Origin: Balneola sp. | Lineage (GTDB): Bacteria > Bacteroidota > Rhodothermia > Balneolales > Balneolaceae | Length of the DNA stretch: 64,000 nt | NCBI GenBank assembly: GCA_002694685.1 | Contig: NZMW01000004.1 | Coordinates: 678,632 to 742,631 of the forward strand | Direction: 5' to 3' | In this document: positions 748 through 9,885 of the stretch, piece by piece | How positions within the stretch are numbered: position 1 is the stretch's first letter | Layout: every line of letters starts with the position of its first letter | Program-made: the position numbers and the translations under genes | The notes under the pieces: generated by a model | Told to the model about the DNA's origin: nothing | Database searches by the model: none | The model's input: the letters and a program-made list of their open reading frames with translations, nothing else

Positions 748-3348
748 ATGAAAAAATTAGTTACCCTATTCGCTTTTTTATTGATGGCGACATCCGCCTT
801 TGCACAGGATGAATTTGCCTTCGAACGTTTTCAATTTCACGCTGACCTAAATTATGATTCCGGCATCACTTCACCGGCCGAATATTTGGGTTACGAACTT
901 GGTAAGGAATATACCTTCCATCATAAAGTGATGGATTACTTCAAGAAGCTGGATGAGGAATCCGACAAGCTGACTCTTCATAAATATGCCACAACCTACG
1001 AAGGCCGTGATTTATACTATGCGGTAATCAGCTCGGAGGAAAATCAGGGAAACATTGATGCTATTCGCCAAGCAAACCTGTCGCTGGCTAATAACCCTGA
1101 GTCCACAACAATTGATGACAAACCGGTGGTGGTTTGGATGAGTTATAATGTTCATGGGAATGAGCCTTCAAGCAGTGAGGCGGCTATGCAAACAGCATAT
1201 CGCCTGGTAGCAGGAGCCGATCAAGAAACTGTAAACTGGCTGGATAATGCTGTAGTGGTGATTGACCCCATGATGAATCCGGATGGCAGAGATCGCTATG
1301 TGTATTGGTACAAATCATCTCGCGCCAACATTTTAAATACTGATGCCAATGATCTGGAGCATGATGAAATTTGGCCGGGCGGACGAACCAATCATTACTG
1401 GTTTGATTTAAATCGTGATTGGGTATGGCTGGTTCACCCAGAGTCACAAGGAAGAATAGCGGCCTATCAAGAATGGATGCCGCAAGTGCATATGGATTTT
1501 CACGAGCAGGGTTTTAATAACAACTATTTTGCAATGCCGGGCACTACTCCAAGAAATCTTGAATTGCCTGCTGATTATGATAAATGGGCGGACGCTTTTG
1601 GTCGTGGTTTGATTGAAGAGTTTGACGAAGCGAATGTAAACTATGCAACCCGTGAGGCATTTGATTTCTTTTATCCTGGGTATGGTTCTTCTTACCCAAG
1701 CGTGATGGGAGGAATTGGAATGTTGGCTGAGCAGGGTGGTCACAGCCGAGGAGGGCGTGCCGTTGAAACTGATGATGAATATGTACTAACACTCCGACAA
1801 CGTGTTTTTGATCACTACACGAATGGAGTTTCAATCGTTAAAACAGCTGCCGAAAATAAAGAAGGGCTGCTTAGCTACTTCAAGAATTCGGTATCTCAGT
1901 CTTCCCAAAAAGGAAATACCAAAGCATACATTCTACCAAATGATGAGAATGATTATACCTATCAGGTAGTAAATATGTTAATGAAGCATGGGGTGAAAGT
2001 GGAACGTGCTACTCAAAATTTCACCCAAAGAGATTCCTATAATTATTGGGATGGTAACTCAACTAACCAAAGTTTTGAAGCCGGTGATTTCATCATTAAA
2101 ACAGATCAGCCCAAACATCTATTCATTAATACGCTGTTCCGTAAGCAGATGGAGATTGAGGATTCAGTGATGTATGATATGTCAACTTGGTCAGTTCCAT
2201 TAGCTTATAACCTGAATGCATCATGGACGACCAGAGGCGTAAATGCTTCTACGGAAATGGTGACGGAAGAAGTAGAGTATAAATCAGGACTTGAGAATTC
2301 TGGCGCTCAGTATGCCTATGTGATCGACTGGGAACAGCGTCACGCTCCAAAAGCGCTGGCTAAACTCTGGGATATGGGATATAAAGTGAGAAGTGCCAGG
2401 CGCCACTTCAACAATGGAGAGAAAACATATTCGGAAGGATCCCTGATTGTTTTAATAGGTCGAAACTTTGATAAGCGTGATCAGATAGCAGCCGACATGC
2501 AAATGCTTGCTAATGAGGCAAATGTTGTTGTAGAAGGCTTTGATAGTGGCCGAATGAATACAGGCATGGATTTAGCTTCCAGCGACTCACAACCCGTTGA
2601 CAAGCCAAATGTGGCCTTGATGATCGATTCTCCATTCAGTTCCTATACGGCCGGTCAGCTTTGGTTTTTATTTGATCAGTGGACGGAGCTTGGAATCAGT
2701 CGAATCAGGTCGGGTAGTTTCTCAAGCAGCGATCTGGAGGATTATGATGTGATTTTGATGCCGGGCTCATGGGGAGGGTTAAGTGGCGTATGGAATGAAT
2801 CAGAAATTGAGTCCCTGAAAACGTGGGTACGAAATGGCGGTGTACTTATTGGTACGGAAGGAAGCGCAGGCTGGCTAACAGAAAGCCGATCCGGATTTAC
2901 AGGCGTAGAGCTGTTTGAAGAAGATGAGGAAGAAGACAGCACCCAAGTAGATCCACAAGCCTATACCAAGTATGCTGATCGGGAAGATGTCTTTGGACTA
3001 GAGCGAATCCCGGGTTCAGCATTTAAAGGTATGCTGGATACTACCAACCCATTGGCTTTTGGAATGAAGGAGCAAATCTACTCACTTAAGTTTGGGGATG
3101 ATGGGCTAGTTCCAAATACCGATTTTCAAACCGTTGGGTACTATGTGAAAGATGCTGACGATGTACTGGCCTCCGGTTATGCCTCAGATGAAAACAAAGA
3201 GAAAGCAGCGGGAATGGCTTTTGCAGCTGTCGAGAATATGGGCAGTGGTAAAGTGGTGTTTCTGCTTGATAACACTCAGTACAGAATGTTCTGGGTTGGG
3301 CCAAGCCGGATGGTTCAGAATGCGGTGATGCTTCTTCCGGGAATGTAG
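748..3348 (+). CDS. Secreted M14-family zinc carboxypeptidase
   Basis: A secreted metallopeptidase of 866 residues with a clear Sec signal peptide (residues 1-20, ending AFAQ). The M14 zinc motif HGNE gives ligands H136 and E139; substrate-binding NPDGRDRY lies near residue 177, the third ligand is in HMDFHEQG (H248 or H252), and the catalytic Glu fits E328 in MLAEQGG. The peptidase domain covers roughly residues 45-370. The C-terminal part (about 620-866, VALMIDSPF, VILMPGSWGG, GGVLIGTEG) looks like a class I glutamine-amidotransferase-like fold, as in other large Bacteroidota M14 proteins. It probably trims peptides in the periplasm or outside the cell. No Shine-Dalgarno precedes the ATG. 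It is monocistronic, followed by a strong terminator. Confidence 0.9.
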   Translation: MKKLVTLFAFLLMATSAFAQDEFAFERFQFHADLNYDSGITSPAEYLGYELGKEYTFHHKVMDYFKKLDEESDKLTLHKYATTYEGRDLYYAVISSEENQGNIDAIRQANLSLANNPESTTIDDKPVVVWMSYNVHGNEPSSSEAAMQTAYRLVAGADQETVNWLDNAVVVIDPMMNPDGRDRYVYWYKSSRANILNTDANDLEHDEIWPGGRTNHYWFDLNRDWVWLVHPESQGRIAAYQEWMPQVHMDFHEQGFNNNYFAMPGTTPRNLELPADYDKWADAFGRGLIEEFDEANVNYATREAFDFFYPGYGSSYPSVMGGIGMLAEQGGHSRGGRAVETDDEYVLTLRQRVFDHYTNGVSIVKTAAENKEGLLSYFKNSVSQSSQKGNTKAYILPNDENDYTYQVVNMLMKHGVKVERATQNFTQRDSYNYWDGNSTNQSFEAGDFIIKTDQPKHLFINTLFRKQMEIEDSVMYDMSTWSVPLAYNLNASWTTRGVNASTEMVTEEVEYKSGLENSGAQYAYVIDWEQRHAPKALAKLWDMGYKVRSARRHFNNGEKTYSEGSLIVLIGRNFDKRDQIAADMQMLANEANVVVEGFDSGRMNTGMDLASSDSQPVDKPNVALMIDSPFSSYTAGQLWFLFDQWTELGISRIRSGSFSSSDLEDYDVILMPGSWGGLSGVWNESEIESLKTWVRNGGVLIGTEGSAGWLTESRSGFTGVELFEEDEEEDSTQVDPQAYTKYADREDVFGLERIPGSAFKGMLDTTNPLAFGMKEQIYSLKFGDDGLVPNTDFQTVGYYVKDADDVLASGYASDENKEKAAGMAFAAVENMGSGKVVFLLDNTQYRMFWVGPSRMVQNAVMLLPGM

Positions 3349-3368
3349 AGGAGCAGTGATTTTAGCAG

Positions 3369-3400
3369 AAAAGGGCGCCTAAACCGGGCGCCCTTTTTTT
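3369..3400. terminator. Bidirectional rho-independent terminator
   Basis: An 11-bp perfect stem (AAAAGGGCGCC / GGCGCCCTTTT) with a 7-nt loop lies between convergent genes ending at 3348 and 3405. It has a T run on the plus side and A residues before the stem, so it can stop transcription from both sides. Confidence 0.9.
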
Positions 3401-3404
3401 ATTT

Positions 3405-3872
3405 CTATAATTGGTATCGGAAACCTATAGATCCGGTAAACCCAAAAATCTGGGAAGGATTGATATCCAGATAAGGACCCATATCAATAAAGACCTCAAA
3501 AGGAGCTTCTTCAAAGCCGTATTCAACACCAATTGGAAACTCGATGCCGTAGGAAACATCTCCATCAACATTAGCGCCAAGGTCAGTATAGTTGAGACGA
3601 ATGCCTGGGGCGTAGTAGGGAGTTAAGCTACCGGACTCTACACCTAGTGAATTTTCACTTTTGTAAATCACATAATTGGCTGAGAAATTAATTTGAGTGA
3701 CATCAATAAGAGTAAAACCTAAATCTGTACGAATAGCTGATTTCTCATTAAGGGTGAATTTGGCAGTAAGTCCCGAAAGGTAGCCGCCAACAGCTTTTTT
3801 GCTTTGCTGTGCATGTATAGAAGTTGATGCTCCAGCAATCAGTAAAAAAAGAAGGACGCGAATGCTTTTCAT
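3405..3872 (-). CDS. Small outer-membrane beta-barrel-like protein, unknown function
   Basis: A 155-residue protein with a Sec signal peptide (about residues 1-21, ending SIHAQ). The mature part has alternating polar/apolar strands (LTAKFTLNEKSAIRTDLGF, INFSANYVIY) and ends in an aromatic-rich final strand (FTGSIGFRYQL), which fits a small 8-stranded barrel inserted by the BAM machinery. I do not recognise a specific family. It lies 29 bp downstream of the amidohydrolase gene on the same strand and may be co-transcribed. The barrel fold is an inference from strand pattern and C-terminus. Confidence 0.6.
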   Translation of the reverse strand: MKSIRVLLFLLIAGASTSIHAQQSKKAVGGYLSGLTAKFTLNEKSAIRTDLGFTLIDVTQINFSANYVIYKSENSLGVESGSLTPYYAPGIRLNYTDLGANVDGDVSYGIEFPIGVEYGFEEAPFEVFIDMGPYLDINPSQIFGFTGSIGFRYQL

Positions 3873-3901
3873 AAAGGTTAAATTTTGGTTTGATGGTAAT
3901 C

Positions 3902-5488
3902 TTAGTAGTCTAGCCCGGGCTGGGTGATTTTAAAGTCTTCTTCAGCTTTAGCGGCTTCTACCATTTCAGCAACGTCTTTCAGTAATTCTTTTGCATCATA
4001 TACAATTCCATCTTTGATAGTATAGCGTACACCGCCTCTTCGAACCGGCTGATTATCTTCATTCACGTAAATAGCTCCGGTGCCGTAGAGTACTTTTAGG
4101 TTTTTCATTGGATTGGCATCTACTATAACCATGTCTGCAAGTTTTCCAATCTCGATGGTACCCAACTGATCATCCACTCCTAAAACTTCGGCTCCCTTTA
4201 AAGAGGCAGACTGAAATATTTCTAAAGGATGAAATCCGGCTTCACGGAACAATTCCATTTCCTGAATATATCCGAACCCGTACAGTTTATAGATATAGCC
4301 GGCATCAGAACCGAGCGTTACACGCCCGCCTTTATTCTTATACTCGTTGATGAACTGCATCCAAAGGTCGAAATTTTCTTTCCACGCAATTTCCTGCTCC
4401 GTTCCCCATTCAATCCAGTACGAACCATGTGAAATCCGGCTGGGAGCGTAAAATTCCCAAAGAGAAGGGATGGTATATTTCTCATGCCATTCAGCTCGGC
4501 GCTGAGCACTTAAGTCTCTGTTGGCTTCATAAATAGTGAAGGTGGGGTTCAGCGTGAAGTCAAGTTCAAGCATCTCATCCATCACTGCTTCCCATTTCTC
4601 TGAACCGGGATCAGCAGCTTGTTTCCATAAGTTTCCAGCTTCTTCAAAACGATGTTGTTCATCGTTATAATTATAGTCTAAAGGATAATCCTGTATGATA
4701 CGATCTTCGAACATAGACTCCGGTAACCCATACCAGTGGGTCAAAGAGGTAAGGCCAAGCTGGGCTGATTTCAATGCATCATTATAAACTACCCGGGTTT
4801 GGGCGTGATGAGTCATAGTGCCAATGCCGAGTTTGTTGGCTTCATCAATTGCTGCGGCGTAAATAGCGGGCTGGGCTCCGAAAAATTTAATTCCATCAGC
4901 TCCTTTTTTGTGAATCATCTGAACCCATTTTCGTGCTTGCTCAGGAGTTGTAATTGGTCCGTCGTGATCCATTCCAAAACCAATCCAAGCTGAAATACGA
5001 GGAGCAGTAATTTCATTATTTGCACTCATCTTCTTGTGGCGAAGTGTCCAATCCATCCCATTAAAAGAACCGGGTTCCCGAATAGAAGTTATTCCATGGG
5101 CAAGCCATAGTTTATATACATATTCAGGGGTTGTACCCTGAGCACCGCCACCGGTATGTGCATGCATATCAAAAAAGCCGGGGAGGAGATACATGCCTTC
5201 AGCATCAATTACCTGAGTATTCTCATCCGCTTTGGGACGGCGGTTTTCATTGATGGGTAAATTTGGATATCCAACGGTTTGAATGGATGCAATTTTGTTT
5301 CCCTCAACCACAATATCGACCGGACCGGTTGCCGGGGATCCGGTACCATCAATCAAATTCACACCACGAATAATTAAACGTTCGTAGGGTCCTTCGCCAT
5401 CCGTACGATCTGGTGCGTCAGACATTTGAGCCTGTACCGTGAAGGTTGCAAAGGTGAGGATTAATAAAAGAGCGTTAATAATTTTCAT
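3902..5488 (-). CDS. Secreted metal-dependent amidohydrolase (imidazolonepropionase/prolidase-like)
   Basis: A 528-residue amidohydrolase-superfamily protein with a signal peptide (residues 1-21, ending VQAQ), so it acts in the periplasm or outside. The metal-binding HxH is H109-A-H111 in FFDMHAHTGGG; further His ligands sit in MTHHAQT and SLTHWYG, and the catalytic Asp is in TLGSDAGY (near residue 394). The N- and C-terminal parts form the usual small beta domain (VNLIDGTG, GKLADMVIVD). Family members cleave cyclic amides or X-Pro/X-Lys/Arg dipeptides; the substrate here cannot be read from sequence. Linked to the small barrel protein at 3405. Confidence 0.85.
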   Translation of the reverse strand: MKIINALLLILTFATFTVQAQMSDAPDRTDGEGPYERLIIRGVNLIDGTGSPATGPVDIVVEGNKIASIQTVGYPNLPINENRRPKADENTQVIDAEGMYLLPGFFDMHAHTGGGAQGTTPEYVYKLWLAHGITSIREPGSFNGMDWTLRHKKMSANNEITAPRISAWIGFGMDHDGPITTPEQARKWVQMIHKKGADGIKFFGAQPAIYAAAIDEANKLGIGTMTHHAQTRVVYNDALKSAQLGLTSLTHWYGLPESMFEDRIIQDYPLDYNYNDEQHRFEEAGNLWKQAADPGSEKWEAVMDEMLELDFTLNPTFTIYEANRDLSAQRRAEWHEKYTIPSLWEFYAPSRISHGSYWIEWGTEQEIAWKENFDLWMQFINEYKNKGGRVTLGSDAGYIYKLYGFGYIQEMELFREAGFHPLEIFQSASLKGAEVLGVDDQLGTIEIGKLADMVIVDANPMKNLKVLYGTGAIYVNEDNQPVRRGGVRYTIKDGIVYDAKELLKDVAEMVEAAKAEEDFKITQPGLDY

Positions 5489-6018: not shown

Positions 6019-6330
6019 AAAAGTTATTTTGGTGAGTGGTCAGCGGGAGAATATCGACTCATTTTGTCTTATCAAAATCGAAAAGAATAAAATTTATTCA
6101 ACATGAAAAAGCTGTTTTTAGTACTGTTTTGAGGCTTTTTTAAAAAAGAATAAAATTATTTAAAAAAAAGTGTAACAAATCTGTTTGGCCTAACTCTTGA
6201 ATATAGCTTAGAGGTGAGATTAATGTTTATACCCTAACAGTTAGTCAAAATTTTTACTCCTTAAAGCTGAAACCTAAAGCTAAAACCCTGAGATTGAACC
6301 TCTCAGGGTTTTTTTATGCTGAATGATTTT
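6019..6330. other. 312-bp intergenic region between ogt and the TonB receptor gene
   Basis: AT-rich and without a credible gene. It contains a nine-codon ATG frame (6103-6132) that looks like the start of a signal peptide but stops at TGA, an imperfect 13-bp tandem pair at 6263-6288 (AAAGCTGAAACCT then AAAGCTAAAACCC), and the terminator at 6282-6316. The ogt promoter should lie in the part nearest 6018. Confidence 0.6.
6282..6316. terminator. Rho-independent terminator after the TonB receptor gene
   Basis: A 12-bp perfect stem, AAAACCCTGAGA / TCTCAGGGTTTT, around a 7-nt loop, with T-rich flanks on both sides. It lies 15 bp beyond the stop of the minus-strand receptor gene, so it closes the metal-uptake unit. 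Confidence 0.85.
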
Positions 6331-8568
6331 TTAGAAGTAAACCCGGTAGAGTAAGCTCACGTTTATGCCCGGTTGAGGTCGTAAATCTTTAATGCGAGAG
6401 AGGTGGTCGTAATATTCCTGATTGAGCAGGTTATTAACATTCAGTGAAAAGGTATGAAGCAGGCTTTTTCCTTCTAACCGATATTGTGAAAAAGCATCCA
6501 CCAAAGTGTAGCTTTCAGTCGGGGTTTCGAATTCACCGGTGCGGTCTTGTTTCCCTGAAAACCGAACTCTACTGCCAATCTCAAAACCGCCCTTAGAATA
6601 TTTCAGTGATGTTTTGGTCTTGAACGGTGGGATTTGAGGGAGGGGGCGCGTGTCGCTATTAATGCCTGTATTAGCTTGTTCTTGCTCAGATACTTTTCGC
6701 TCGGCTATCGTGTAGCTCATGGATAAATCAATAACAAAGTTGGTTAAAAACTGAAGTTCACCGGAAAATTCAGCCCCATAAAGTATAGCCTCAGTTCCTA
6801 CGAACTGGTAATTATTTAAATCAGGTCTGCTGTTATTTCGTTGGCCTGTATCTCTCGCATATAAGTAGTTGTCAAATCCGTTGTGAAAAAGGGCCGTTTC
6901 TGCTGTGGCTTTCTCGGACTGATACCTGAGGAAAAGCTCTTTAGCCAAACCACGTTCAGGATCAAGATCAGGATTCCCGACTTCAAAGGAATAAGAAGCC
7001 AAATGTGGACCTTCCGAATACAACTCTTCGAGAGAAGGTGCACGGAAAGAGTGTAATAAACTGGTACCTGCCGAAAACCCTTTTCCTAACGAGTAAATGG
7101 CAGCAAAGGAACTTGAAAGGGCTGGGAATGACCTTTCCCGTATATTACCAATAGAGGATGTAGGATCATTTTCGACCGGTTTATTTAATACCCAGTCGAA
7201 TCGCAGACCTGCTTCAAGGTGGAGCCGATCAATATCTTTCTCTTCTATAAGGTAGGTTCCAATTTTGTAGCTGTTTGCATCGGGAGTGCTTGCACCAATT
7301 ACTGCGTAATCTTCCAATTCTCCCCATACTCCAAAACTACCTTTATCTAAAAACCCAAGTGAATTATGAGATGCTTTTACTTCAGCATTAGTGGTTACCA
7401 AACCAAATTGAGTGCCTAAAGAACCGTTCGATTCAATTTCTTTATGGGTGTAATTCTTAATGGAAAAATCGGCTTCCAATACATCAATAAAATCATTGCG
7501 AACTAAAATTTCTGACTTAACATCGTACTGGAACTTTTTCATTTCAATATCCACTCCATTTGGATGTCCGTTTGGATCCGGTGGAATTCCATAATTATTG
7601 ATGTAGGTGCTAAAAGCAGCTCCCAGGTAACCCCAACTTTTCACCCAACTCAAGCCTAAAGCATCATTTGTTGATCTATAATAAGTATTGTCGATTTCAC
7701 CTAAAGGCGTACCGACATCTCCAGCCAGGCGGCCATTTAAGTTTAAGCTGAGCGCAAAATCTTTATATGGAATGGTGGCATCTAAAGCTCCTGAGACACC
7801 GCTGCTTACAGACTCACCGTTGAGTGTAAAGCTCCCTGTAAATTTTGAGGGAACCGTAGTTTCAATTTGATTACGAACCACATTGATTACCCCACCAATG
7901 GCATTTGCTCCGTATGCAAGAGCTTGTGGCCCTCTTGCTATTTCTACTTCCTGAGCTGATATGGGATCAATAGTTACGGCATGGTCGGATGACTGAGCGG
8001 AAACGTCACCTGAACGAATACCATCCTGTAAAATCAAAACCCGTTCATCTCCCAAACCTCTTATAACGGGTCTTCCCGGTGCGGAGCCCATTTTACGTTC
8101 GTCAAATCCAGCTAAATTAGATAGTGTCTGTGAGAGTGTATTACCAAGGTTTCTTCTAAGGTCTGAGCCAAAAACTTTTTTTGAGGCATGCTCCAGAGTT
8201 GAACCTTCTAAAACCTCTTCTTTGCCTACAACATCTACAGATTGAGATCCAAGAACAGTAGGGCGTAGTTTTATATTTACAATTTTATCGGATTCTTCAA
8301 TGCTAACTTCTTGTGTTTGAGTCCGATATCCGATACGGTGCACTGAAAGCGTGAAGTTGCCTTCCGGCATATTTTTGATTTCATATTTACCTGCAGCATC
8401 TGCAACAGAAGTCCGATTCAGTTCTTCAACGTGAACGTAGGCAAATGAGATTGGATCGTTGGTTTCGGAATCAGTAATTGTTCCGGATAATAAAAAACTG
8501 TCCTCAGCAGGAGAGCTTCCTGAAAGGAAACCCCCTGTGAGTAACAGTAATGAGATTAATATATGCAC
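6331..8568 (-). CDS. ZnuD-like TonB-dependent outer-membrane receptor
   Basis: A 745-residue receptor that would import a ligand across the outer membrane using TonB energy. It has a signal peptide (about 1-21), a carboxypeptidase-regulatory-like domain (about 25-105, SGTITDSETNDPISFAYVHVEE), a plug (about 125-235) and a beta-barrel ending in the expected terminal Phe (LLYRVYF). The plug phrases RPVIRGLGDERVLILQDGI, SSDHAVTIDP and GANAIGGVINVV match the ZnuD group of zinc receptors as I know it. The GTG start overlaps the stop of the upstream lipoprotein gene by one base (TAGTG), which indicates translational coupling. Zinc as substrate is inferred from family and from the metal-ligand-rich neighbours; copper or another metal remains possible. 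Confidence 0.85.
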   Translation of the reverse strand: MHILISLLLLTGGFLSGSSPAEDSFLLSGTITDSETNDPISFAYVHVEELNRTSVADAAGKYEIKNMPEGNFTLSVHRIGYRTQTQEVSIEESDKIVNIKLRPTVLGSQSVDVVGKEEVLEGSTLEHASKKVFGSDLRRNLGNTLSQTLSNLAGFDERKMGSAPGRPVIRGLGDERVLILQDGIRSGDVSAQSSDHAVTIDPISAQEVEIARGPQALAYGANAIGGVINVVRNQIETTVPSKFTGSFTLNGESVSSGVSGALDATIPYKDFALSLNLNGRLAGDVGTPLGEIDNTYYRSTNDALGLSWVKSWGYLGAAFSTYINNYGIPPDPNGHPNGVDIEMKKFQYDVKSEILVRNDFIDVLEADFSIKNYTHKEIESNGSLGTQFGLVTTNAEVKASHNSLGFLDKGSFGVWGELEDYAVIGASTPDANSYKIGTYLIEEKDIDRLHLEAGLRFDWVLNKPVENDPTSSIGNIRERSFPALSSSFAAIYSLGKGFSAGTSLLHSFRAPSLEELYSEGPHLASYSFEVGNPDLDPERGLAKELFLRYQSEKATAETALFHNGFDNYLYARDTGQRNNSRPDLNNYQFVGTEAILYGAEFSGELQFLTNFVIDLSMSYTIAERKVSEQEQANTGINSDTRPLPQIPPFKTKTSLKYSKGGFEIGSRVRFSGKQDRTGEFETPTESYTLVDAFSQYRLEGKSLLHTFSLNVNNLLNQEYYDHLSRIKDLRPQPGINVSLLYRVYF

Positions 8569-9041
8569 TATTCAGCCGCTTCAACGTGTACGTGAATATT
8601 TTGGGAAGTGAAATCAGAATGGCCACTATGCATGAGCATAAGTCTTAAATCTGTAATCCCTTCTGCTTCAGCATGGATGTGAAAACTCCACTTTCCGTCT
8701 TCGTCATGTTGCTCGAATTCAGCTATGCCAGAATCTTCAAATTCATAGCCAAGGCTGAGTTCATCTTCATCGGGAGTGAACTCTTCACCATCGTGATCAA
8801 TAAATACAATAGTAATGAGGTCAGTTTCTTGTCCCGTTACTAGTTCAAATTCACCTGTCAAATCCTCGTCAGGCAATTGCTCCACGACAGTTTGCCCGTT
8901 CATTATCAGGCGAAATCCTTCGGCGTCTCCATGCTCATCTTCATCGGCAGAGGTAGAATTTGAGCAAGCGGTGAAAATTCCAGCAAAAATAATAAGTGTT
9001 AATACAGTCTTAGCTGCTGATAAAAGGTCTACTTTTTTCAT
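8568..9041 (-). CDS. Acidic, His-rich lipoprotein linked to the metal receptor
   Basis: A 157-residue protein with a lipoprotein signal: hydrophobic stretch, then FTAC with lipidated C26. The mature part is strongly acidic (DEDEHGDAEG, DEDELSLGYEFEDSG) and carries His groups at the C-terminal end (SFHIHAEAEG, LMLMHSGHSDF, IHVHVEAAE). No enzyme motif is visible. Its His/acid clusters and its coupling to the TonB receptor suggest a periplasmic or surface metal-binding helper that passes ions to or from the receptor; that role is inference. It resembles lipoproteins often found beside ZnuD-like receptors. Confidence 0.6.
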   Translation of the reverse strand: MKKVDLLSAAKTVLTLIIFAGIFTACSNSTSADEDEHGDAEGFRLIMNGQTVVEQLPDEDLTGEFELVTGQETDLITIVFIDHDGEEFTPDEDELSLGYEFEDSGIAEFEQHDEDGKWSFHIHAEAEGITDLRLMLMHSGHSDFTSQNIHVHVEAAE

Positions 9042-9076
9042 GATAGATTGATTTAAATAAATTGATAAATAAGTTT

Positions 9077-9105
9077 TTAAGGCCTGTATTAGAAAACAGG
9101 CTTAA
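9077..9105 (-). other. Hairpin between two genes of the metal-uptake unit
   Basis: TTAAGGCCTGT and ACAGGCTTAA pair with one bulged G around an 8-nt loop; on the minus strand the stem is followed by AAACTTATTT. It sits in the gap between the Cys/His-rich gene and the lipoprotein gene. It could be a weak terminator or an mRNA processing/stability element that sets different levels for the two parts of the operon. Confidence 0.45.
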
Positions 9106-9119
9106 GGAATGGGTTTTAT

Positions 9120-9428
9120 CTAAATCAATGCTGGCGGGGCACGTCCGAGGAGAGGAGTATGAAATTCTTCAGCGATCAGGAGTTCTTGTACAGCAACAAG
9201 GGTTTCCTGAAATTCTAAAATATGAGTGTAGTTAACAGATTCTTCGTAGGTAGTATCTGATACAATAGTACAAACTGGACAGACTGGATCGTTTTCCGCG
9301 TAGTGCTGCTCATTCGCATGGTGTAGACATTCCAATCCTTCACTGTGATAATGAGCCATAGCACCCAACATACCCACCACAGCGAGTGCGAGAAAAATAA
9401 ATGATATGAAGTTTCTAAATCTGCTCAA
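9120..9428 (-). CDS. Small exported Cys/His-rich protein (DUF2946-like) of the metal-uptake unit
   Basis: A 102-residue protein with one N-terminal hydrophobic segment (about 7-24, signal or anchor). The exported part is rich in possible metal ligands: HYH (26-28), C34, H36-H37, H42, and CPVC with C50 and C53. It ends in GRAPPALI; an RAPP-type C-terminus is a mark of DUF2946-like small proteins seen in metal loci. The start is TTG, the first possible codon after an in-frame TAA and the only one that keeps the whole hydrophobic segment; no good Shine-Dalgarno is present. It is the first gene of the unit and lies 33 bp from the palindrome at 9461. Confidence 0.6.
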   Translation of the reverse strand: MSRFRNFISFIFLALAVVGMLGAMAHYHSEGLECLHHANEQHYAENDPVCPVCTIVSDTTYEESVNYTHILEFQETLVAVQELLIAEEFHTPLLGRAPPALI

Positions 9429-9460
9429 TTAGATATATCGTATTACCTAGTAAGAATTAC

Positions 9461-9475
9461 GATGATAATATCATC
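9461..9475. promoter_or_regulatory. Perfect 7-1-7 palindrome, candidate Zur/Fur-family operator
   Basis: GATGATA-A-TATCATC is a perfect inverted repeat with a one-base centre. The 7-1-7 layout and GAT/ATC-rich half-sites resemble Fur-superfamily operators. It lies 33 bp upstream of the first gene of the metal-uptake unit, where a repressor would cover the promoter, and 62 bp upstream of the divergent gene at 9538. Regulator identity is inference. Confidence 0.55.
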
Positions 9476-9537: not shown

Positions 9538-9885
9538 ATGGCAGAGTTTCTTGAGTTAACGAAGGAATGGTTTTTTAGTCTTGGAGAAAATTATGGAGTA
9601 AATCCCATTATTTTTGGAAGTATTTATGTAGGAGCTATTCCATTTTTCACCCTAAGTATTGGCTGGCTGGTTAAGAGTTATAGAAAGGGTAAGCCTATCG
9701 TGCTTCCGGCAATCAGTGCCACATTCTTTTTTATATCTGCCTATCTATACCTGATAATAGCCGGTGAGAATGTGCCTTGGTGGGTGTACGGAGTGGTTGT
9801 AGTGATGGTGATTTACGGAGCTTGGTCAACCTACAATAAAGTAAGATCAAGAATACAGGACGCTACACCACAACAAAAAGGGTGA
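9538..9885 (+). CDS. Small integral membrane protein, unknown function
   Basis: A 115-residue protein with three hydrophobic segments (about residues 22-46, 54-74 and 80-98), a short basic cytoplasmic-looking loop (KSYRKGKP) and a basic tail (YNKVRSRIQDA). No conserved motif that I recognise. It is transcribed away from the metal-uptake genes and shares their upstream region, so it might be under the same palindrome, but nothing in its own sequence suggests metal handling. No Shine-Dalgarno is visible before the ATG. Confidence 0.6.
   Translation: MAEFLELTKEWFFSLGENYGVNPIIFGSIYVGAIPFFTLSIGWLVKSYRKGKPIVLPAISATFFFISAYLYLIIAGENVPWWVYGVVVVMVIYGAWSTYNKVRSRIQDATPQQKG

Follow-up and report, generated by a model that had tools for sequence, protein, structure and literature searches.

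The 64,000-nucleotide (nt) stretch of Balneola sp. DNA analysed here (contig NZMW01000004.1, positions 678,632 to 742,631 of the forward strand; hereafter the window) contains three genes which are read in the same direction on the minus strand. In the order of transcription, these are an open reading frame (ORF) for a protein of 102 residues with a TTG start (9120..9428, in the following the upstream ORF, uORF), the gene of a lipoprotein of 157 residues (8568..9041) and the gene of a TonB-dependent receptor of 745 residues with a GTG start (6331..8568). A gap of 78 nt separates the uORF from the lipoprotein gene, and the G in TAGTG belongs to both the lipoprotein stop codon and the receptor start codon; this arrangement, including the overlap, had been predicted from the letters of the sequence and was borne out. 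The uORF is a candidate gene of a metal-sensing ribosome-arrest peptide. We propose that the three genes form a zinc-uptake operon, the first gene of which probably acts as a sensor in cis, composed of a self-stalling peptide and an RNA stem, and not as a carrier of the metal. This proposal is carried by features obtained by computation, namely a C-terminal motif, a fixed spacing, a covarying stem, the operon partners, a zinc context and the alternation with a Fur-family box; arrest, metal binding, zinc in preference to copper as the metal, and the sign of the response are what we infer for the 102-residue peptide. All coordinates of operon features refer to the window and to its minus strand.

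According to Pfam, the receptor consists of a TonB barrel, a plug and an N-terminal carboxypeptidase-regulatory-like domain. The top NCBIfam model was ZnuD (NF038289, E 1.7e-62), with a score of 212 bits that lies far below the cut-off of 950, and the best relative with a solved structure was also ZnuD (4rdr, E 6.5e-40). The bound site of ZnuD from Neisseria meningitidis is given as 'D90/H100/E340/H499' (PMC4557270). We read 'D90' as an error for D99, the residue preceding H100. In the alignment of the receptor with 4rdr, whose chain numbers exceed those of the paper by 14, the chain residues H114, E354 and H513 correspond to H100, E340 and H499. The equivalents in the receptor are D195-H196 (7981..7986), corresponding to D99-H100 in the zinc site of the plug, E377 (7438..7440) for E340 and H522 (7003..7005) for H499. 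All of them were invariant in 17/17 receptors, which were drawn from both uORF-bearing and uORF-less lineages. Judged by its sequence, the receptor is ZnuD-like, as had been predicted: it belongs to the same fold family as the neisserial protein and has the four high-affinity zinc ligands at equivalent positions. Unlike ZnuD, it possesses the additional N-terminal carboxypeptidase-regulatory-like domain and is encoded beside a lipoprotein and a uORF.

The product of ORF 9120-9428 contains C34, C50 and C53 and clusters of histidines, which confirmed the earlier description. Its C-terminus reads GRAPPALI, in which residues 96-99 represent a putative RAPP arrest motif (9132..9143) followed by A-L-I and the stop codon. 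Candidate metal ligands are found in HYH (residues 26-28, 9345..9353) and in CPVC (C50..C53, 9270..9281), the cysteines of which are placed 45 and 42 residues before R96, respectively. In a first set of 41 loci (40 fetched loci and the window), an ORF ending in R[A/S/D]PP preceded the lipoprotein gene in 33, many of them without a homologue visible to BLAST; the variants were RAPP, RSPP and RDPP, mostly with three residues between motif and stop. The eight loci without such a uORF were L043, L046, L047, L053, L055, L057, L058 and L059, of which L043 ended with its contig and was not assessable. Between the cysteine of the CP pair and the arginine, exactly 45 residues intervened in 31/33 uORFs, the exceptions being L023 with 46 and L037 with a frameshifted fragment, although the 45-residue spacers themselves had a median pairwise identity of 13%. 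Only H26, H28, C50, R96, P98 and P99 were invariant among 36 aligned members (H26 and H28 in 36/36). The second cysteine of CPVC is optional in the family, and CxxC is not universal.

A second set, the named set, was fetched with a receptor profile and comprised 80 loci, of which 8 with less than 1100 bp upstream were left out and 72 were counted. A uORF carrying a cysteine 42-50 residues before the motif was present in 60/72 loci, compared to 0/72 on the opposite strand and 2/57 and 0/57 in the downstream controls. The spacing was 45 in 50/60 of these uORFs, and 44 to 50 in the other 10, which belonged to Ignavibacteria, Calditrichia, Gemmatimonadota and other distant metagenome-assembled genomes. 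Since several loci of the first and the named set are from the same genomes, the two sets are not independent of each other, except for the replication of the stem test described below, from which recognised overlaps were left out.

A simple hydropathy rule assigned a signal- or membrane-type N-terminus to 48/58 uORF peptides. In the 31 loci with HxH, a simple rule likewise gave TTG (10), GTG (4) or ATG (15) as start codons and left 2 unassigned; this would suit a weak initiation in a part of the family. Like RAPP-type arrest peptides, the peptide of the window is short and exported, is encoded by a uORF and carries a RAPP-like motif close to its stop codon. Further RAPP uORFs in the genome of the window were also considered and discarded, as the pattern had 13 matches against 8 for its reversal, and the single long ORF with a cysteine was that of the operon itself.

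Additional ORFs of this kind occurred in some relatives. In the genome of L037 (G007), where the operon uORF is split by a change of frame, an intact second uORF with an RSPP end is located elsewhere, in front of another TonB receptor (L294). In three loci (L039:8865-9176, L031:3326-3637 and L041:8776-8973), another exported HxH/Cys protein is encoded between the receptor and a second, distant TonB receptor, and may provide the cluster with an additional switch. It ends in KSPP in L039 and L031, whereas the ORF of L041 lacks this end.

The co-occurrence of the three genes had been named as a check on the original prediction of a metal-uptake unit built around a ZnuD-like receptor. Homologues of the lipoprotein were present in 51/57 related genomes, and in 38/40 fetched loci the receptor followed on the same strand; in the two others, the locus was cut by the contig end (L047) or the lipoprotein was seen by eye just upstream (L059). 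BLAST-type matches to the 102-residue protein were obtained in 21/57 genomes and adjoined the lipoprotein gene in 21/21. The grouping of the genes is far beyond chance, and the predicted unit therefore passed this check. Deviating arrangements were observed as well: in two Gemmatimonadota records the lipoprotein gene lies behind the receptor instead, and in L042 a second lipoprotein paralogue (6070-6513) stands before the uORF, resulting in the order lipoprotein, uORF, lipoprotein, receptor.

While the genes had been described correctly in the original prediction, it had missed the C-terminal RAPP and also an RNA pairing between 9115-9132 and 9045-9061. The 5' arm of this stem (9115..9132) is formed by the codons after RAPP, the stop codon and 5 nt beyond. 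The 3' arm (9045..9061) is located just 5' of the lipoprotein ATG and would occlude the ribosome-binding region. In the window the stem has 17 pairs and encloses an inner hairpin (9077..9105), which differs in sequence from the inner hairpins of the relatives. The 108-nt segment folds with -19.8 kcal/mol (z -4.37), none of 200 shuffled sequences was as stable, and the minimum free energy and centroid folds both contain these elements.

The pairing was tested in an alignment-free manner, in which the 5' arm of each locus was paired with its own 3' arm and with those of all other loci; lipoprotein starts were picked by rule or by eye, which added noise. A first version, in which the segments can overlap, yielded -13.5 for own arms versus -8.4 in 33 loci. 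With strictly non-overlapping segments, own arms of the 33 loci reached -9.9 versus -5.0 kcal/mol across genera. One locus per genus gave -9.5 (n=18, p <= 5e-5), and the restriction of these to gaps <=160 nt gave -11.0 versus -5.1 (n=14, p <= 5e-5). The result was replicated with 30 chosen new loci of the named set (-7.7 versus -5.3, p <= 5e-5) and again after removal of 5 near-duplicates (25 loci, -7.3 versus -5.0, p <= 5e-5). The arms are divergent in sequence and yet paired, for example in the window, L042, L048, L041, L050, L027 and L031. Compensatory change thus maintains the pairing of the uORF 3' end with the ribosome-binding region of the lipoprotein gene.

The 102-residue protein had originally been thought to capture the metal or to hand it over. 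This is probably wrong in view of the RAPP end, the fixed position of the cysteine, the place at the head of the operon and the pairing of the 3' end with the next start. A secreted metallochaperone that delivers zinc to the receptor or to the lipoprotein would be in agreement with the signal-type N-terminus, with HxH, C34 and CPVC and with the strict co-occurrence with the receptor operon. However, for such a protein it would be difficult to explain that the distance from Cys50 to RAPP is conserved in length and not in sequence, that R-x-P-P ends three residues before the C-terminus, that the second cysteine is often missing and that the 3' end of its gene pairs with the start of the next one. 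Moreover, lineages without the uORF have retained the lipoprotein and the receptor. We therefore regard a metallochaperone as quite improbable.

A sensor acting in cis could function as follows. The ribosome would translate the exported peptide from its weak TTG start, and the nascent chain, to judge from the motif, would stall it at RAPP, with three codons left before the stop. The footprint of a stalled ribosome reaches about 15 nt downstream; with the first proline codon in the P site, a ribosome would thus cover the 5' arm up to about its middle. If zinc is scarce, the stall would persist, the ribosome would cover part of the 5' arm and the 17-pair stem would open. The ribosome-binding region of the lipoprotein gene would then be freed, and the lipoprotein and the overlapping receptor could be made. 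If the metal is present, the HxH and cysteine ligands may bind it while they emerge, so that the chain is pulled or folded and the stall is released; the stem would re-form and shut the uptake genes.

Arrest could also be released by the force of export alone, as in secretion monitors of the SecM/VemP type, and would then report translocation and not the metal. A RAPP-like motif, an exported N-terminus and a stem occluding the next start indeed constitute the layout described for Sec-monitoring arrest peptides. The genes downstream are, however, metal-uptake genes and not sec or yidC, and the invariant residues H26, H28 and C50, each at a fixed position, would have no role in pure force sensing. 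A secretion monitor is consequently very unlikely.

Evidence on the nature of the metal was obtained from the lineages without the uORF. A TGCAAC-N4-TTGCA box was found before the lipoprotein-receptor genes in 6/7 assessable uORF-less loci and in 0/33 uORF loci within -700 to +600 of the uORF end (Fisher p 1.8e-6). In the named set, 6/12 uORF-less and 2/60 uORF loci possessed the box (p 1.4e-4). The same box precedes genes of COG0523 GTPases (PF02492 and CobW_C; PF02492 E 7e-56 to 2e-57) in four genomes (G042, G037, G050 and G041) and stands beside a second Fur-family gene in six (G050, G052, G037, G045, G048 and G042). In seven genomes, 1 to 10 matches to the box per strand and genome were counted, compared to 0 to 1 for a reversed control pattern. 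COG0523 genes are common targets of Zur (PMC6103462). In the uORF-less sister lineages, the Fur-family box was thus found both at COG0523 genes and at zinc-uptake genes, as is expected for a Zur regulon, and the regulator is a putative Zur. The operon itself also points to zinc in some genomes with the uORF. In G022 the uORF, lipoprotein and receptor genes are followed by those of an outer-membrane-type protein, of ZnuA and of an ABC-3 permease, and in G291 a RAPP uORF heads the genes of an outer-membrane-type protein, ZnuA and the ABC-3 permease ZnuB, without a receptor.

Zinc or copper had been named as the metal in the original prediction, and the ZnuD ligands, the Fur-family box and the ZnuA/ZnuB context suggest zinc as the more likely one. 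The same switch might nevertheless sense copper and serve its import, as does CruR with CrtA (BfrG) in Bordetella. This is unlikely. In its favour, a response to copper is described for both CruR and CutF, which are the systems closest to this one, and ligands consisting of cysteine and histidine are suitable for both Cu(I) and Zn(II). Copper is difficult to reconcile with the invariant ZnuD zinc ligands of the receptor, with a Fur-family box common to the operon of the sister lineages and COG0523 genes, and with ZnuA and ZnuB inside two operons with a uORF.

Some candidates and observations concerning Fur-family regulation have to be mentioned in addition. As a possible operator, an imperfect palindrome upstream of the uORF (GATGATAATATCATC, window 9461-9475) was considered and rejected, because it lacks conservation even among members of the genus. 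A loss of Zur in the family was also rejected: a single Fur-family gene is present in G014, G019 and G022, but more than one in G000, G001 and G028, and the uORF-bearing G049 possesses a Zur-like gene with the box. The TGCAAC box is not located upstream of the window operon; the one copy in this genome lies elsewhere. In L126 (2818-3740; contig C12 of G000, the window's own genome), the second Fur-family gene is followed within a few nt by the sole match to the box in that genome, then by the gene of an exported Cys/His protein of 143 residues without a Pfam match and by a long ORF which by eye resembles an RND efflux pump. The same layout of Fur-family gene and box was seen in G001 and G028, and the L126 cluster is perhaps a zinc-efflux counterpart resembling CzcI. 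In L116 (G042), the box is placed between another TonB receptor and a gene that looks DtxR-like by eye and is followed by ZnuA, and this locus is a further candidate member of the regulon.

Several observations weigh against a zinc-responsive arrest peptide in this operon. The nearest characterised relatives are copper sensors, as stated above. RAPP by itself often does not cause arrest, since most of the RAPP-like proteins of E. coli and B. subtilis that were tested did not arrest (PMC10987492). In the strict test with 33 loci, the stem was weak or absent in seven (L022, L024, L029, L036, L044, L049 and L060), with two others (L045 and L051) being marginal; it was also weak in several of the new loci, and the pairing signal was absent in the four loci with a gap >200 nt. 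Box and uORF both follow lineage, so that the p values for their exclusivity are not based on independent draws and do not reflect many independent events. Furthermore, no match to ZnuA was obtained in the window's own genome, and the second Fur-family gene of this genome lies beside a likely RND efflux gene and not beside this operon.

The lipoprotein has a lipobox with Cys26, an acidic and His-rich stretch at its N-terminus and one Ig-like domain. It had no match in Pfam or NCBIfam, and a PDB sequence search yielded short chance hits only. The AlphaFold2 model (pLDDT 87, pTM 0.73) had BIg, S-layer and filamin domains as its nearest folds; these were dismissed as a clue to function, as they reflect a common fold only. 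C26, G128 and H138 were invariant in 38/38 lipoproteins. Co-occurrence and composition make a role as a metal partner at the surface or in the periplasm possible. In L299, a DUF4625 lipoprotein takes the place of the Ig-like lipoprotein, and the TonB receptor behind the RAPP uORF (1303-5193) is flanked by DUF4625 proteins, which may therefore be another type of metal-partner lipoprotein.

A profile of the uORF matched in 55/296 genomes of the phylum, 36 of them in the family of the window and 19 elsewhere. From these matches 13 places were chosen and fetched, and all 13 had an ORF ending in [R/K][A/G/S]PP. The next genes encoded a TonB receptor in 12 places (by receptor query or Pfam) and ZnuA with ZnuB in one. 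Beyond Balneolaceae, such loci were found in Calditrichota, Gemmatimonadota, Neomarinimicrobiota and other Bacteroidota.

The relatives of the window locus belong to Gracilimonas and other Balneolaceae. One flank of the operon contains a divergent gene of a 115-residue membrane protein (window 9538-9885), which adjoins the operon in many relatives and is sometimes duplicated, and a long ORF matched across relatives, presumably PPDK. On the other flank, a methylguanine-DNA methyltransferase is encoded. A terminator scan gave a single hairpin (6282-6312), read on the plus strand. A comparison with Rfam gave no match near a gathering score.

On balance, we slightly favour the broader view that a family of zinc-sensing arrest peptides in Balneolaceae and scattered groups controls the receptor and, in some genomes, ZnuAB. 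These peptides would bind zinc 45 residues (in Balneolaceae) from the stall site, operate an RNA stem and replace the Fur-family (Zur-like) box of the sister lineages. If this is true, translation, and not a DNA-binding repressor, is the zinc sensor for uptake. Metal-sensing arrest peptides have so far been described for copper, and a zinc version would represent a control of zinc uptake independent of Zur. It would also explain small 'hypothetical' proteins encoded before receptor genes, perhaps including LIC10965 of Leptospira. In addition, the operon offers a simple reporter (RAPP, Cys50 and the stem arms) for the question of how a bound metal frees a stalled ribosome.

The literature search, which covered few subscription journals, returned no report of an arrest peptide with zinc. 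The word 'zinc' occurs 0 times in PMC9426467, PMC12992588 (main text), PMC10987492 and PMC9973294, as far as these were available, and once in PMC12914433. RAPP/RGPP uORFs before TonB receptors have been surveyed across Gram-negative bacteria (PMC12992588, section 13). Its position, its signal and its motif place the uORF of the window in this class; its operon, spacing, stem and link to zinc are not described in that section. A further relative is the LIC10965 family of Leptospira (NF047702), compared here via its model only, which 12/36 uORF peptides matched (best E 2e-5). The match of the window peptide ends at the last position of the model, at P99, with a score of 24.8, the cut-off being 130. 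In host-adapted Leptospira cells, both LIC10965 and LIC10964, a receptor gene, are raised (PMC3953431).

A close parallel in layout is CruR of Bordetella pertussis, a uORF of the DUF2946 family that precedes a TonB receptor gene, in which RAPP is needed for expression and CxxC for the copper response (PMC9426467). Arrest of CruR at RAPP was demonstrated in vitro (PMC12992588). In CruR, 45 residues lie between CxxC and RAPP, and the insertion of five residues there breaks regulation (PMC9426467); the CPVC of the window stands at the same distance (45 and 42). Like CruR with BfrG/CrtA, the uORF of the window heads an operon before a TonB-dependent receptor and combines an exported N-terminus with a cysteine motif 45 residues before RAPP (PMC9426467, PMC12914433). 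Unlike CruR, the family of the window has HxH and a cysteine with an optional second one, a ZnuD-like receptor, a lipoprotein and a zinc context, and where CruR has an intergenic region of 162 nt with Rho termination, that of the window is short and forms a stem occluding the next start. The window protein had no match to DUF2946 (PF11162) at E<=0.5, and 2/36 members matched weakly (best E 0.03); the window protein is therefore not filed as CruR.

CutF of Rhodobacter capsulatus is encoded upstream of cutO, and a stem hides the Shine-Dalgarno site of the next gene (PMC9973294). It resembles the uORF of the window in being an exported nascent metal sensor with a Pro-rich C-terminus, a stem of this kind and about 45 residues between its cysteines and the C-terminal motif. 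CutF differs in its CxxxC and in another Pro-rich motif, and copper switches the oxidase on; for an uptake gene, unlike the oxidase of CutF, the metal would be expected to act as an off signal.

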